Shown piece after piece: positions 320 through 46,283 of a DNA stretch of 64,000 nucleotides. The DNA comes from Devosia sp. A16 (GTDB lineage Bacteria > Pseudomonadota > Alphaproteobacteria > Rhizobiales > Devosiaceae). Below the pieces are notes generated by a model that searched no databases, had not been told where the DNA came from, and saw only the letters and a program-made list of their open reading frames with translations. Both the position numbers and the translations under genes were made by a program. The stretch covers positions 2,209,501 through 2,273,500 of the forward strand of contig NZ_CP012945.1 of the NCBI RefSeq assembly GCF_001402915.1, given 5' to 3'. Every line of letters begins with the position of its first letter. Within the stretch, counting starts at the first letter, position 1.

Positions 320-973
320 CTAACGAGTTGATTTCCGTCGCAAATTGCTGATCTGCAGCAACACGCCAGCCTCGTCGGTGGCGCTTCCGATTATTACCAC
401 GTCGAAGTCCCAGGCCAAACGACTTTCCTCGACCTCCACAGCATGATCCTTGCCCTTGTGCAGGATCGCGCGAGATTCCGGGCCAAAGAAGGGGTGGATA
501 AGTTCAAGCAGCAGCGGCAAGGCGGCAAGGGCGCGCGACGTGATCACGTCAAAGCGCTGCGGCTTGCCGCTCGATGTTTCACGTGACTCAAAGCTGTCGG
601 TTCGGCCGGCATGCACGGTCGCCGCGAGGCCGAGCTCACGGATCACCTGGCGCAGAAACGCCACCTTCTTGCCGATCGGTTCGACCAGGGTGAAGTGGGC
701 CGCGCCCCCCTTGAGCGCGATGGCCAGCGGAATGGCCGGTAGCCCGCCACCTGAGCCGACGTCCAGAAAGCTGGCGTCCTTGGACTGCAGCAGCGGCAGC
801 ACCTGCAGCGAATCGAGCACGTGGCGCGACCACAGCGCGCCCTCTGTTTCACGTGAAACAAGATTCTGTACGGCGTTCCACTTCCGCAGCAGCGCAGAAA
901 ACGATTCCAGGTCCCGCCGAACCGCGGCTTCTCCGCGGACAAAGCTGCCGGCGTACGGCGTCAGATCGCCCAT
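320..973 (-). CDS. rsmG: 16S rRNA (guanine-N7) methyltransferase RsmG
   Basis: Methylates G527 of 16S rRNA using S-adenosylmethionine. The SAM-binding glycine-rich loop FLDVGSGGGLPAIPLAI and VEPIGKKVAFLRQV are characteristic of GidB/RsmG, and 217 residues is normal. The ATG at 973-971 shares its A with the mnmG stop (TGATG), so translation is probably coupled; a TTG one codon upstream is possible but less likely. The gene carries two parS-type sites, encoding the peptides ESRETS and VSRETE, one of them a perfect match to the consensus. Confidence 0.97.
   Translation of the reverse strand: MGDLTPYAGSFVRGEAAVRRDLESFSALLRKWNAVQNLVSRETEGALWSRHVLDSLQVLPLLQSKDASFLDVGSGGGLPAIPLAIALKGGAAHFTLVEPIGKKVAFLRQVIRELGLAATVHAGRTDSFESRETSSGKPQRFDVITSRALAALPLLLELIHPFFGPESRAILHKGKDHAVEVEESRLAWDFDVVIIGSATDEAGVLLQISNLRRKSTR
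575..590. other. parS-like ParB-binding site 1 (14 of 16)
   Basis: TGTTTCACGTGACTCA inside rsmG, read on the minus strand as ESRETS. Confidence 0.75.
845..860. other. parS site 2, perfect consensus (16 of 16)
   Basis: TGTTTCACGTGAAACA, an exact match, inside rsmG (VSRETE). Confidence 0.95.
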
Positions 974-2871: not shown

Positions 2872-2887
2872 TGTTTCACGTGAATCA
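2872..2887. other. parS site 3 (15 of 16)
   Basis: TGTTTCACGTGAATCA in the mnmG-mnmE gap. Confidence 0.9.
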
Positions 2888-6281: not shown

Positions 6282-7316
6282 CTAAGCTCCCCGCGCCACT
6301 TCAATCAGCCGTTCGACATGCGCGATCGGCGTTTCGGGCACGATCCCGTGCCCCAGGTTGAAGATATGTGGCCGGCCGCGAAACGCCGCAACGATCTCGC
6401 GCACCCGATTGTCCATCTGCTCGCCGCCAGCCAGCAACCGCAGGGGATCGAGGTTACCCTGCACCCCGAGGCCTGCCGGCAGCTCGGCGGCAAAGCCCAG
6501 CGGCGTAGCATAGTCGAGCCCCAGCACGTTGACGCCGGTCGCCTTGGCATAGGCCGGCAGGTTCCCTGCCGCCCCGCGTGGGAAGCCGATGACCGGGGCG
6601 TTCGGGACAAGCTTCCTCAGCCCTTCGACGATCCGCCGGTTCGGCTCGATCACCCAGTTGCGAAATGCCACCTCGTCGAGGTTGAGCGCCCAGCTCTCGA
6701 ACAGCTGCACCACATCGGCGCCGGCCCCCAGCTGCGCCGCGAGATAATCGATGCTGGTCTCGACCAGGATATCGATCAGCTGCGCGAAGGCCAGAGGCTC
6801 TGTCAACGCGAACACCCGTGCTGCCGCCTGGTCCGGAGAACCGCGGCCACCGATCATATAGGTGGCAACGGTCCAGGGTGACCCGCAGAAACCGATCAGC
6901 GTCTTGTCCGGTGCCAGCCCGGCGCGAACCCGTCGAACCGTCTCGATGATCGGGCCGAGCTTTTCGAAAGCCCCATTGGGGTCGAGCTGCGAGATGGAAC
7001 CGACCGTCATGGGCTCGAGCCGTGGACCTTCGCCGACCTCGAACCGCACCTCCTGGCCGAGGGCGTCAGGGATCACCAGGATGTCGGAGAACAGAATGGC
7101 CGCGTCGAGGTCGAACCGCCGGAGCGGTTGCAGCGTCACTTCCGAAGCGAGTTCGGGATTGTAGCAAAGGTCGAGAAAACTGCCGGCCCTGGCGCGAAGC
7201 TCACGGTATTCCGGCAAATAGCGCCCGGCCTGACGCATGATCCAGATCGGCAGGCGCTCCTGGCGCTGCCCGCGCACCGTCTCGAGCAACGGTTTCACCA
7301 CCGGCGCCTCGGTCAT
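6282..7316 (-). CDS. hemE: Uroporphyrinogen decarboxylase HemE
   Basis: Converts uroporphyrinogen III to coproporphyrinogen III. The signature PIWIMRQAGRYLPEYRE near the N terminus (residues about 23-39) and GFCGSPWTVATYMI in the middle identify the family, and 344 residues is the usual length. hemE borders the replication origin in many alphaproteobacteria, and here its 5' end faces the gene-free oriC candidate. A 16-bp palindrome lies 17 bases upstream of its ATG. Confidence 0.98.
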   Translation of the reverse strand: MTEAPVVKPLLETVRGQRQERLPIWIMRQAGRYLPEYRELRARAGSFLDLCYNPELASEVTLQPLRRFDLDAAILFSDILVIPDALGQEVRFEVGEGPRLEPMTVGSISQLDPNGAFEKLGPIIETVRRVRAGLAPDKTLIGFCGSPWTVATYMIGGRGSPDQAAARVFALTEPLAFAQLIDILVETSIDYLAAQLGAGADVVQLFESWALNLDEVAFRNWVIEPNRRIVEGLRKLVPNAPVIGFPRGAAGNLPAYAKATGVNVLGLDYATPLGFAAELPAGLGVQGNLDPLRLLAGGEQMDNRVREIVAAFRGRPHIFNLGHGIVPETPIAHVERLIEVARGA

Positions 7317-7332
7317 CGCCCAACCAACCCAA

Positions 7333-7348
7333 AAGAATCTAGATTCTT
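7333..7348. repeat. 16-bp perfect palindrome with two GANTC motifs in the oriC candidate
   Basis: AAGAATCTAGATTCTT reads the same on both strands. It contains GAATC and GATTC, both possible CcrM-type methylation sites, and lies in the most AT-rich part of the region, 17 bases upstream of hemE. It could be a protein-binding site for hemE control or part of the origin. Confidence 0.7.
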
Positions 7349-7496
7349 AATCTTCATTATCATGGCGGTGTTTTGCAGGAATTCCGGTTTGCCCACAACG
7401 TCGGCAGCGGCGACAGAAGCGCGCGGCGGGTGGTGTGTCGCAGGGCTGTGAATCCGCAAGCTGTGAACGGCACAGGGGTGACCGGGAGTCGCCCGG

Positions 7497-7512
7497 TTTA
7501 CTAAGTCTTAAC
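7497..7512 (+). promoter_or_regulatory. CtrA-like box 1 of oriC (TTTA-N7-TTAAC)
   Basis: One mismatch from the CtrA consensus TTAA-N7-TTAAC. It is the leftmost of three boxes in the same orientation. Confidence 0.55.
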
Positions 7513-7525
7513 CATGTCACAATCG

Positions 7526-7541
7526 CTAACGATCCGTTAAC
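7526..7541 (+). promoter_or_regulatory. CtrA-like box 2 of oriC (CTAA-N7-TTAAC)
   Basis: One mismatch from TTAA-N7-TTAAC, 29 bases downstream of box 1 and in the same orientation. Confidence 0.55.
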
Positions 7542-7594
7542 AGGGCTGTTGATGACGGGGCGTCATCCGCAACCGGTTATCCCCGAACCTCACA

Positions 7595-7610
7595 TTAAGC
7601 CTTTGTTAAC
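7595..7610 (+). promoter_or_regulatory. CtrA box 3 of oriC, perfect TTAA-N7-TTAAC
   Basis: TTAA, seven bases, TTAAC: an exact consensus match. It lies 69 bases after box 2 and about 130 bases before the maf start codon. Confidence 0.7.
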
Positions 7611-7738
7611 CGCTTGCCCGAGCGCGGCTGTTGAAGGATCGGCGCCCAGCGGGGAGAACGCCGCCGGTGTGGCGGCGCCCCGGTTTTTCCACCGCCACGA
7701 GGCTTGAGCAATCAAGGACAGTGTGGAAAACCGAGGCC

Positions 7739-8332
7739 ATGCTGATCCTCGCTTCCCAGAGCGCAACGCGAAAGGCCCTGCTGGCGGACGCCGGGCTGCG
7801 ATTCGAACCGAGTCCAGCGCAAATCGACGAGCGCGGGCTCGAAGCCGAAGTGCTGGGGAAAGGCGGCGATGCGCCTGCCGTGGCGCGGCGTCTGGCCGAA
7901 GCCAAGGCGGTTGCCGTCTCGACGTCGCGTGCCGGCGTGGTGATCGGGGCGGATCAGGTCCTCGCCTCGGACGGCGAACTTCTGCACAAGCCGGCAGACC
8001 TCGACGCGGCGGCCCGTCAGCTCGATCGGCTCGCCGGCCGTACGCATCACCTCCACGCGGGCATCGCGCTGGCCAGGGCCGGACGCTTGCTCTGGTCGAG
8101 CACCGAGAGTGCCGCGCTGACTATGCGGCGCTTCGATGCGGCGGAACGTGAGCAGGTGCTGGCCCTCGAGGGACCCGAAGTCCTCGCCTCGGTGGGCGCC
8201 TACCGCCTCGAAGGCGCCTCGATCCGGTTGTTCGAGCGCATCGAGGGCGACTATTTCACCATTCTGGGGCTGCCGCTGTTGCCTCTGCTCGCAGCCTTGC
8301 GTCAGCACGCACCCGAAACCCTCAGCCAGTGA
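7739..8332 (+). CDS. maf: Maf/YceF-family nucleoside triphosphate pyrophosphatase
   Basis: House-cleaning pyrophosphatase that hydrolyses non-canonical nucleotides. The N-terminal LASQSATRKALLADAG and VIGADQVL are the Maf signatures. I choose the ATG at 7739 (197 residues) because it places LILASQSATR at the N terminus as in the family, rather than longer in-frame options. It is the first gene right of oriC and overlaps aroE by four bases. A DnaA-box-like 9-mer ends nine bases before the start. Confidence 0.93.
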   Translation: MLILASQSATRKALLADAGLRFEPSPAQIDERGLEAEVLGKGGDAPAVARRLAEAKAVAVSTSRAGVVIGADQVLASDGELLHKPADLDAAARQLDRLAGRTHHLHAGIALARAGRLLWSSTESAALTMRRFDAAEREQVLALEGPEVLASVGAYRLEGASIRLFERIEGDYFTILGLPLLPLLAALRQHAPETLSQ

Positions 8333-9159
8333 TTCACGTGAAAAAAGCCTTCGTCATCGGCCATCCGATCAAGCATTCCCGCTCGCCGCTGATTCACGGC
8401 AGCTGGATTGCCGAGCACGGCATCGACGGCAGTTACGAAGCTATCGATGTTGCGCCCGAGAATCTGCCGGCATTTATGGAACGGCTGCGCGCGGGCGAGT
8501 TCGTGGGCGGCAATGTCACCATCCCGCACAAGGAAGCGGTGTTCGCGGTCTGCGACAGCGTCGACCCGCTGGCGAGGACCATTGGGGCCGTGAACACCCT
8601 GGTGCGCCTGCCCGACGGGCGGATCCACGGCTTCAACACTGACTATATGGGGTTTCTCGGCAACCTCGATCAGAACGCCCCGGGCTGGGACGGCGGCGCG
8701 GCCCCTGCATTAGTTCTCGGCGCCGGTGGAGCCGCACGGGCAATCCTTGTCGCTCTGCAGAGCCGGAGCATTCCGATTATCCTGCTCAACCGAACGCGCG
8801 CTACGGCCGACAGGCTTGCCAGCGAACTGGGTGGCGACATCATCATCGGGGCGCTGGACGAGGTCAATAGCGCTGCGCCGCTTGCCGAGCTTGTGGTCAA
8901 CACCACTTCGATCGGCATGCACGGCACCAGATTCGAGGATTTCGATCTCGATGTCCTGCGCCCGGAAACGCTGGTCACCGACATTGTCTATGTACCGCTC
9001 GTCACCCCTCTGCTTGCCGATGCCCGGGCTCGCGGGCTGCGCACCGTCGATGGGCTCGGCATGCTGCTGCATCAGGCGCTTCCGGGGTTCGAGGCCTGGT
9101 TCGGAGTGCGTCCCGAAGTGACGCCGGGCTTGCGGGCGAAAGTCGAGGCGACGCTCTGA
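8329..9159 (+). CDS. aroE: Shikimate dehydrogenase AroE
   Basis: Reduces 3-dehydroshikimate to shikimate with NADPH. Substrate-site motifs HSRSPLIH and NVTIPHKEA, the NADP loop GAGGAARA and NTTSIGMHG are all present. The start is a GTG at 8329 overlapping the maf stop, or a GTG at 8338 giving Met-Lys-Lys-Ala-Phe-Val; no strong ribosome site separates them. Both GTGs are part of or touch a parS-like site (8330-8345). 276 residues is normal. It overlaps coaE by one base. Confidence 0.95.
   Translation: MIHVKKAFVIGHPIKHSRSPLIHGSWIAEHGIDGSYEAIDVAPENLPAFMERLRAGEFVGGNVTIPHKEAVFAVCDSVDPLARTIGAVNTLVRLPDGRIHGFNTDYMGFLGNLDQNAPGWDGGAAPALVLGAGGAARAILVALQSRSIPIILLNRTRATADRLASELGGDIIIGALDEVNSAAPLAELVVNTTSIGMHGTRFEDFDLDVLRPETLVTDIVYVPLVTPLLADARARGLRTVDGLGMLLHQALPGFEAWFGVRPEVTPGLRAKVEATL
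8330..8345. other. parS-like site 6 (14 of 16)
   Basis: TGATTCACGTGAAAAA, spanning the maf stop and the aroE start region. Confidence 0.72.
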
Positions 9160-46267: not shown

Positions 46268-46283
46268 TTAAGAGGCGGTTAAC
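46268..46283 (+). promoter_or_regulatory. CtrA box, perfect TTAA-N7-TTAAC, between hrcA and rph
   Basis: TTAA, GAGGCGG, TTAAC; 30 bases before the rph start and 60-70 before the hrcA start. The only perfect match I found outside oriC. Confidence 0.6.

Follow-up and report, generated by a model that had tools for sequence, protein, structure and literature searches.

Predicted CtrA boxes at the hemE-side chromosomal origin of a family of Hyphomicrobiales

Introduction

In Caulobacter crescentus, the chromosomal origin Cori lies between hemE and COG1806 and carries five CtrA boxes (PMC1914354, PMC4468827, PMC8959179). The hindering of DnaA by CtrA at this origin has been reviewed (PMC4468827, PMC4285127), and weakening the CtrA sites of Cori is described as having only mild effects on Caulobacter strains grown in the laboratory (PMC4468827). 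For Rickettsia, Wolbachia and Ehrlichia, the predicted origins lie beside hemE and contain from zero to seven CtrA boxes (PMC1914354). These genomes are mostly A+T-rich, which would make chance boxes easier to come by, and their order is distant from the one considered here. In Hyphomonas neptunium, a relative of Caulobacter that stands outside the Hyphomicrobiales, a CtrA ChIP-seq peak adjoins the origin (PMC7200025).

Sinorhizobium meliloti and Brucella abortus belong to the same order as the present genome. In these species ctrA knockouts are reported to have failed or to be severely impaired (PMC8116508), and CtrA-depleted S. meliloti over-replicates (PMC4433202). The S. meliloti origin is described as having no CtrA motif and as not being bound by CtrA (PMC4433202), so that any CtrA control there would be indirect, and the CtrA of B. 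abortus is reported not to bind the origin (PMC2877005). The exceptions predicted or seen in these sources are relatives of Wolbachia and Ehrlichia (PMC1914354) and Hyphomonas (PMC7200025), none of them in the Hyphomicrobiales. In the open literature, most subscription papers being outside our scope, we found no report of CtrA boxes or CtrA binding at a Hyphomicrobiales origin.

The DNA analysed here (the window) is a 64-kb stretch, 2,209,501-2,273,500, of a single 5,032,994-bp contig. A first-pass annotation had proposed that the gap between hemE and maf in this window is a Caulobacter-style origin with three CtrA boxes, and that this organism may have kept a direct CtrA gating of replication that is generally not reported for Sinorhizobium or Brucella. 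The contrast with these two genera does stand in print (PMC4433202, PMC2877005).

Results

The hemE-maf intergenic gap that forms the oriC candidate is 422 bp long (7317-7738; chromosomal coordinates 2,216,817-2,217,238) and has an A+T content of 42% (Table 1). The maf-like gene that adjoins it, with its start codon at 7739, matches Maf profiles below their curated cut-offs (NF002690, 210 bits vs 269). COG1806, the gene on the other side of the origin in Caulobacter (PMC1914354), was not found as the second flank of this gap, the maf-like gene being there instead.

Table 1. Features of the candidate origin and its surroundings (window positions; binding sites are predicted)
Feature	Position	Strand	Sequence	Remarks
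parS	845..860	.	TGTTTCACGTGAAACA	perfect
parS	2872..2887	.		one mismatch
hemE	6282..7316	-		left flank of origin; TIGR01464 profile, 391.5 bits, cut-off 302.95
Possible unwinding element	7321..7365	.		most A+T-rich segment of the gap, 70% in 40-bp windows
AT-rich palindrome	7334..7347	.	AGAATCTAGATTCT	two GANTC sites (7335, 7342)
DnaA-like 9-mer	7389..7397	+	TTGCCCACA	two mismatches; partly kept in the genus, identity 0.72 over 7388-7398
CtrA box I	7497..7512	+	TTTACTAAGTCTTAAC	one mismatch to TTAA-N7-TTAAC
CtrA box II	7526..7541	+	CTAACGATCCGTTAAC	one mismatch
DnaA-like 9-mer	7547..7555	-	TCATCAACA	two mismatches
DnaA-like 9-mer	7563..7571	+	TCATCCGCA	two mismatches
DnaA-like 9-mer	7577..7585	+	TTATCCCCG	two mismatches; TTATCCCCA or TTATCCACG in some relatives
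CtrA box III	7595..7610	+	TTAAGCCTTTGTTAAC	perfect
DnaA-like 9-mer	7685..7693	+	TTTTCCACC	
DnaA box	7722..7730	-	TTTTCCACA	beside maf; one mismatch to TTATCCACA
maf-like gene	7739..8332	+		right flank, directly after the gap; Maf profiles
parS-like	8330..8345	.		two mismatches; at the aroE start

Three kinds of in silico sign, namely skew, octamer polarity and parS placement, mark the gap as the chromosomal origin and support its first annotation as an oriC candidate. The cumulative G-C curve detrended over 2,097,076-2,573,500 is lowest at 2,213,576, within about 3 kb of the gap. Twelve of its 15 lowest half-kilobase points fall in 2,213,076-2,218,576, where the gap is included, and the other three in 2,223,076-2,225,576. 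A two-segment fit of the skew breaks at 2,214,076, 2.7 kb from the gap, and the gap lies inside the block-bootstrap 5-95% range of 2,207,526-2,223,626. The raw cumulative GC skew is weak, falls on past the gap and has no minimum there, because both arms have a mean skew below zero (-0.037 and -0.011; 20 sampled stretches each). The skew minimum that had been suggested as a check is thus seen near this place in the detrended curve and not in the raw one.

The second sign is the polarity of the exact, strand-biased octamer GGGCAGGG, which is KOPS-like, with a link to FtsK. Up to 2,207,116, eight of nine sites are on the minus strand, and from 2,213,688 onwards 22 of 27 are on the plus strand, which places the flip 3-10 kb from the gap. 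The 40 sampled 20-kb stretches show a switch of polarity here and the reverse switch between 4.61 and 4.78 Mb; the position diametrically opposed to the gap is 4.73 Mb. With a looser octamer, GGGNAGGG, polarity does not change sharply around the gap, and its best point (2,231,752) is barely better than none. Finally, all 10 parS-like sites (at most two mismatches) in the 5.03 Mb are located within 2,161,973-2,248,285, that is, in 86 kb around the gap, and in 20 of the 20 family genomes tested the parS sites (one mismatch) are close to hemE, 62 of 63 being at most 8 kb away. The dnaA gene is 321 kb from the gap, and a distant dnaA is not unusual for the class.

The three predicted CtrA boxes of the first-pass annotation, one perfect and two near-perfect, were all found between hemE and maf. 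They do share one orientation on the plus strand, as had been claimed, and this means little: TTAA-N7-TTAA is the same on both strands, the trailing C alone is directional, and each of boxes I-III also matches the minus strand with one mismatch. Outside the gap, the only box with at most one mismatch in the window is at 46268. This site (46268-46283) is perfect in both directions and lies between divergent genes that, judging by their translations, presumably correspond to hrcA and rph. A genome sample of 1,196,425 bp contains 39 sites with at most one mismatch, the three of the gap included, which corresponds to 0.014 expected per 423 bp; in this 1.196 Mb sample, the only one on which box clusters were counted, three sites inside 150 bp occur in the gap alone.

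The spacing of the half-sites was used as a control. In the genome sample, spacer 7 gave 39 sites, of which 8 were perfect, against 6-16 sites (0-1 perfect) for each of the spacers 3-6 and 8-12, so that the CtrA spacing is preferred genome-wide. In the whole genome, the excess of the motif over the reversed pattern is modest with one mismatch allowed (81/82 vs 62/70) and strong with none (12/12 vs 0/1). We also aligned the gap among 14 of the 18 genus genomes fetched, taking the gap ends from provisional maf distances or fixed lengths. The half-sites have identities of 0.79 for box I and 0.87 for box III, compared to 0.57 for the rest of the gap, and the spacers of these two boxes have 0.50; the half-sites of box II, at 0.50, are not above the rest of the gap. 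When a box-shaped template was slid along this alignment, a non-box place at 7705 outscored box III, and 11 of the 12 top places outscored the exact frame of box I (one of them being a 1-bp shift of box I), the remaining one being box III. The half-site conservation statistic alone is therefore unconvincing, while the spacer control is convincing. One member of the genus, L012, has a single box with one mismatch.

HemE was searched in the genome itself and in 150 relatives, with matches in 142 of 151. The box counts cover 79 genomes of the family (our own included) and 51 from other families of the order. Nine genomes without a HemE match, four with only a 32-34% relative and one with a partial hemE (G025) enter no box count, and the order genomes G095, G096, G098, G107, G115, G137 and G143 are also outside. 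In family f1, the six draft genomes without a HemE match and the four with only a 32-34% relative belong to genera g10 and g12; two g12 genomes carry hemE in full.

Within the first 450 bp upstream of hemE, allowing at most one mismatch, at least one box is present in 79 of the 79 family genomes, at least two in 73 and at least three in 55. The next 450 bp beyond contain a box in none of the 79. A perfect box occurs upstream of hemE in 70 of the 79 genomes, compared to 0-8 genomes for the other spacer lengths, and the perfect sites number 102 at spacer 7, 8 at spacer 6 and between 0 and 2 at any of the remaining eight. In block-shuffled gaps a box appears in 6.7% and a perfect box in 0.25%. 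The position is also kept, a box starting 165-215 bp from hemE in 75 of the 79 genomes. Conservation in relatives, which had been named as a check on the boxes, therefore holds throughout the family genomes examined, and predicted CtrA boxes at the hemE-side origin are, as far as examined, a trait of the whole family.

The right flank of the gap is less uniform. In 72 of the 79 family genomes maf lies 400-699 bp from hemE (in 71 of them at 400-499 bp). In the other seven (L021, L025, L220, L240, L248, L250 and L263), aroE is next to the gap and maf is absent from the fetched locus; the boxes are kept in all seven. In other families of the order, maf is 1100-1499 bp from hemE in 43 of the 48 genomes where it was found. 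This wider distance is consistent with room for one more gene, which in Caulobacter is COG1806 (PMC1914354). Origins flanked by hemE have COG1806 opposite in Caulobacter and Rickettsia and other flanks elsewhere.

DnaA-like 9-mers, also claimed by the first-pass annotation, are present in the gap and are mostly weak: one is within one mismatch of TTATCCACA and five have two mismatches. Two 9-mers of the gap are within one mismatch of TTWTCCACA, and by this pattern (one mismatch) the family gaps hold 2.6 DnaA boxes each vs 0.15 when shuffled. The sequence GTTATCCCC (7576-7584) has an identity of 0.90 in the genus alignment. Among 208 CtrA boxes of the family, 8.7% are at most 10 bp from a DnaA box vs 25.6% under random placement. 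CtrA boxes are thus rarer near DnaA boxes than expected by chance, and this family does not show the direct overlap with good DnaA boxes that is seen in Cori. In origins of the Caulobacter type, moderate DnaA G-boxes touch CtrA sites and an IHF site overlaps a CtrA box. The present gap contains neither the G-box TGATCCACA nor a match to the IHF pattern WATCAN5WTR.

The AT-rich palindrome noted in the first annotation was confirmed. GANTC occurs four times in the gap (two within 7335-7346, the others at 7450 and 7486) vs 0.7 expected. This is the sequence methylated by CcrM (PMC3708114), and such methylation could mark new origins here. An inverted repeat with 14-nt arms, 79% complementary, lies at 7544-7574 between boxes II and III. 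In four of the 79 family genomes (L014, L015, L022 and L225), the present one not among them, the exact IHF sequence of Cori, TAACGCTCTGTT (PMC4285127), is found inside a CtrA box, 126-127 bp from hemE; with one mismatch it occurs in five other family gaps and in five gaps of other groups. It may be a common site that serves both CtrA and IHF, or a coincidence in closely related genomes, inside a box that is under constraint.

Outside the family, 48 genomes of the order have the conserved neighbours, and a box is present in 25 of them and a perfect one in 15, compared to 0-3 genomes with a perfect site for each of the other spacers. The 15 genomes represent 13 of 42 families. The remaining three of the 51 order genomes have neither the conserved neighbours nor a box. 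Candidate boxes at the hemE-side origin are, by this motif count, common to a sizeable minority of the other families. Of the best 80 named alphaproteobacterial HemE loci among the matches listed, none of them closer than 60% in HemE, 41 are syntenic, seven with a box (perfect in three) and 34 without. Cohaesibacter has four boxes, Chelatococcus, Roseibium and an unplaced Hyphomicrobiales MAG two each, two Hyphomonadaceae three and two, and Rhizobium rosettiformans one with a mismatch. No box was found in the syntenic loci of all six Phyllobacteriaceae (Mesorhizobium, Aminobacter, Aquamicrobium), Rhizobium esperanzae, the Xanthobacteraceae, the Rhodobiaceae, all eight Sphingomonadales, the Rhodospirillales or the Acetobacterales. 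Six of the 39 non-syntenic loci of the same best 80 listed have a box, and hemE may not mark the origin there. Sinorhizobium and Brucella are outside the named set, and their origins are taken from papers alone.

In the HemE tree, the order-mates fall among sequences of Bradyrhizobium, Rhizobium, Chelatococcus and Roseibium, so that the order is the Hyphomicrobiales (Rhizobiales), in agreement with the first-pass placement. The family itself stood beside the Caulobacterales in the first tree, and this grouping returned in a smaller tree of 47 rows with a support of 86. With the family constrained to the other Hyphomicrobiales, the log-likelihood was 7.5 higher (p-AU 0.73), and the grouping of the free tree was not rejected either. 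Since the constrained tree is the likelier one, a transfer of the origin region from the Caulobacterales is not needed to explain the data, as far as a single-gene test goes. One MAG contig, L140, carries the label Hyphomicrobiaceae, yet its HemE clusters with two sequences of Rhodobacterales (support 100); this contig is perhaps mislabelled or contaminated.

The genome encodes a CtrA with 85% identity over 203 residues to a hand-typed Caulobacter CtrA query, the next paralogue having 37%, and the protein scores 426 bits with the CtrA profile NF045991 (cut-off 350). Its gene starts at 1,110,015 and is preceded by two one-mismatch boxes (1109660 and 1109847). ChpT and GcrA are also present; an in-frame TGA in gcrA turned out to be apparent only, as it is the terminal stop.

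Discussion

The locus resembles Cori of C. crescentus in its hemE flank, in a gap of about 400 bp with several TTAA-N7-TTAA boxes, few good DnaA boxes and an A+T-richer part, and in a genome equipped with CtrA, ChpT and GcrA. It differs from Cori in having three boxes instead of five, a maf-like gene in place of COG1806, and CtrA boxes that in this family are not beside DnaA boxes. We consider it probable that the gap is the origin and that phosphorylated CtrA binds there and restrains initiation, as in Caulobacter, the binding, its dependence on phosphorylation and the repression of initiation being drawn from the Caulobacter model.

DnaA would bind the good box beside maf together with the weaker boxes inside the gap, and would presumably open the A+T-rich part beside hemE. 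CtrA~P would occupy boxes I and III, and perhaps weakly box II, in the middle of the gap, where it would hinder the build-up of DnaA, so that cells with active CtrA would not initiate replication. With no CtrA/DnaA adjacency in the family, and no G-box or IHF-pattern match in its own gap, this origin is not a straight copy of Cori, and the label of Caulobacter style given to it at first was too close. If CtrA is a repressor here, it would more likely block the spreading of DnaA across the middle of the gap, or act via DNA shape, than share sites with good DnaA boxes.

The boxes might instead be CtrA sites that control how hemE, maf or an origin RNA missing from the annotation (like CcnA of Caulobacter) is transcribed, with an effect on replication that is indirect at most. 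CtrA is chiefly known as a transcription factor, which counts in favour of this explanation, as do the two boxes upstream of ctrA itself and the presence of hemE beside every box set examined, although the latter follows from our choice of locus. At Cori, moreover, hemE transcription can be CtrA-repressed (PMC8959179). Against it, we found no sigma-70-like promoter in 7200-7800. An RNA at the origin was considered and rejected, as nothing in the 64-kb window matched Rfam at gathering thresholds. The persistence of the boxes in 7 of 7 family genomes without maf beside the gap argues against a role tied to maf, and the boxes are located among conserved DnaA-like boxes. All these results are compatible with other promoter types and with an action on hemE. 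We regard an exclusively transcriptional role as rather unlikely, and retain direct restraint of initiation by CtrA as the preferred reading.

It is very improbable that TTAA-N7-TTAA is bound here by another protein or arises simply because the origin is richer in A+T. A binder of A+T steps of the MucR or nucleoid type would be an example of such a protein. In the family boxes, C is the most frequent first base of the spacer and G the most frequent last base, and many boxes thus read TTAAC-N5-GTTAA, an inverted repeat, which would suit another binder. This must be set against the sharp preference for spacer 7 (102 perfect sites vs 0-8), the rarity of boxes in shuffled gaps of equal composition, the identity of the motif with the published CtrA motif (PMC1914354, PMC4285127) and the clear CtrA orthologue encoded by the genome. 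That the gap is not the origin at all, as the raw skew falling on past it and the plus run of GGGCAGGG starting 3 kb to its left might suggest, is hardly credible given that the detrended skew, the GGGCAGGG polarity at both chromosome ends and parS converge within about 10 kb, and that the hemE flank is the known place of the origin in Caulobacter (PMC1914354).

The earlier interpretation, a direct CtrA gating of the origin, is thus partly supported; its restriction to this organism was too narrow, as a perfect box is found in 13 of 42 other families too. Direct gating may be old and common in the Hyphomicrobiales, either shared with the Caulobacterales or repeatedly re-made, with Sinorhizobium and Brucella being exceptions by loss and the present family having kept it in every genome examined; we put this forward tentatively, as a history that falls somewhat short of an even chance. 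Direct cell-cycle gating of replication may be wider in the order than its best-studied members implied. With boxes throughout the family (79/79), and a perfect box in one or more genomes of 13 of the 42 other families, comparing relatives becomes a tractable way to ask if direct gating has been lost, retained or invented anew.
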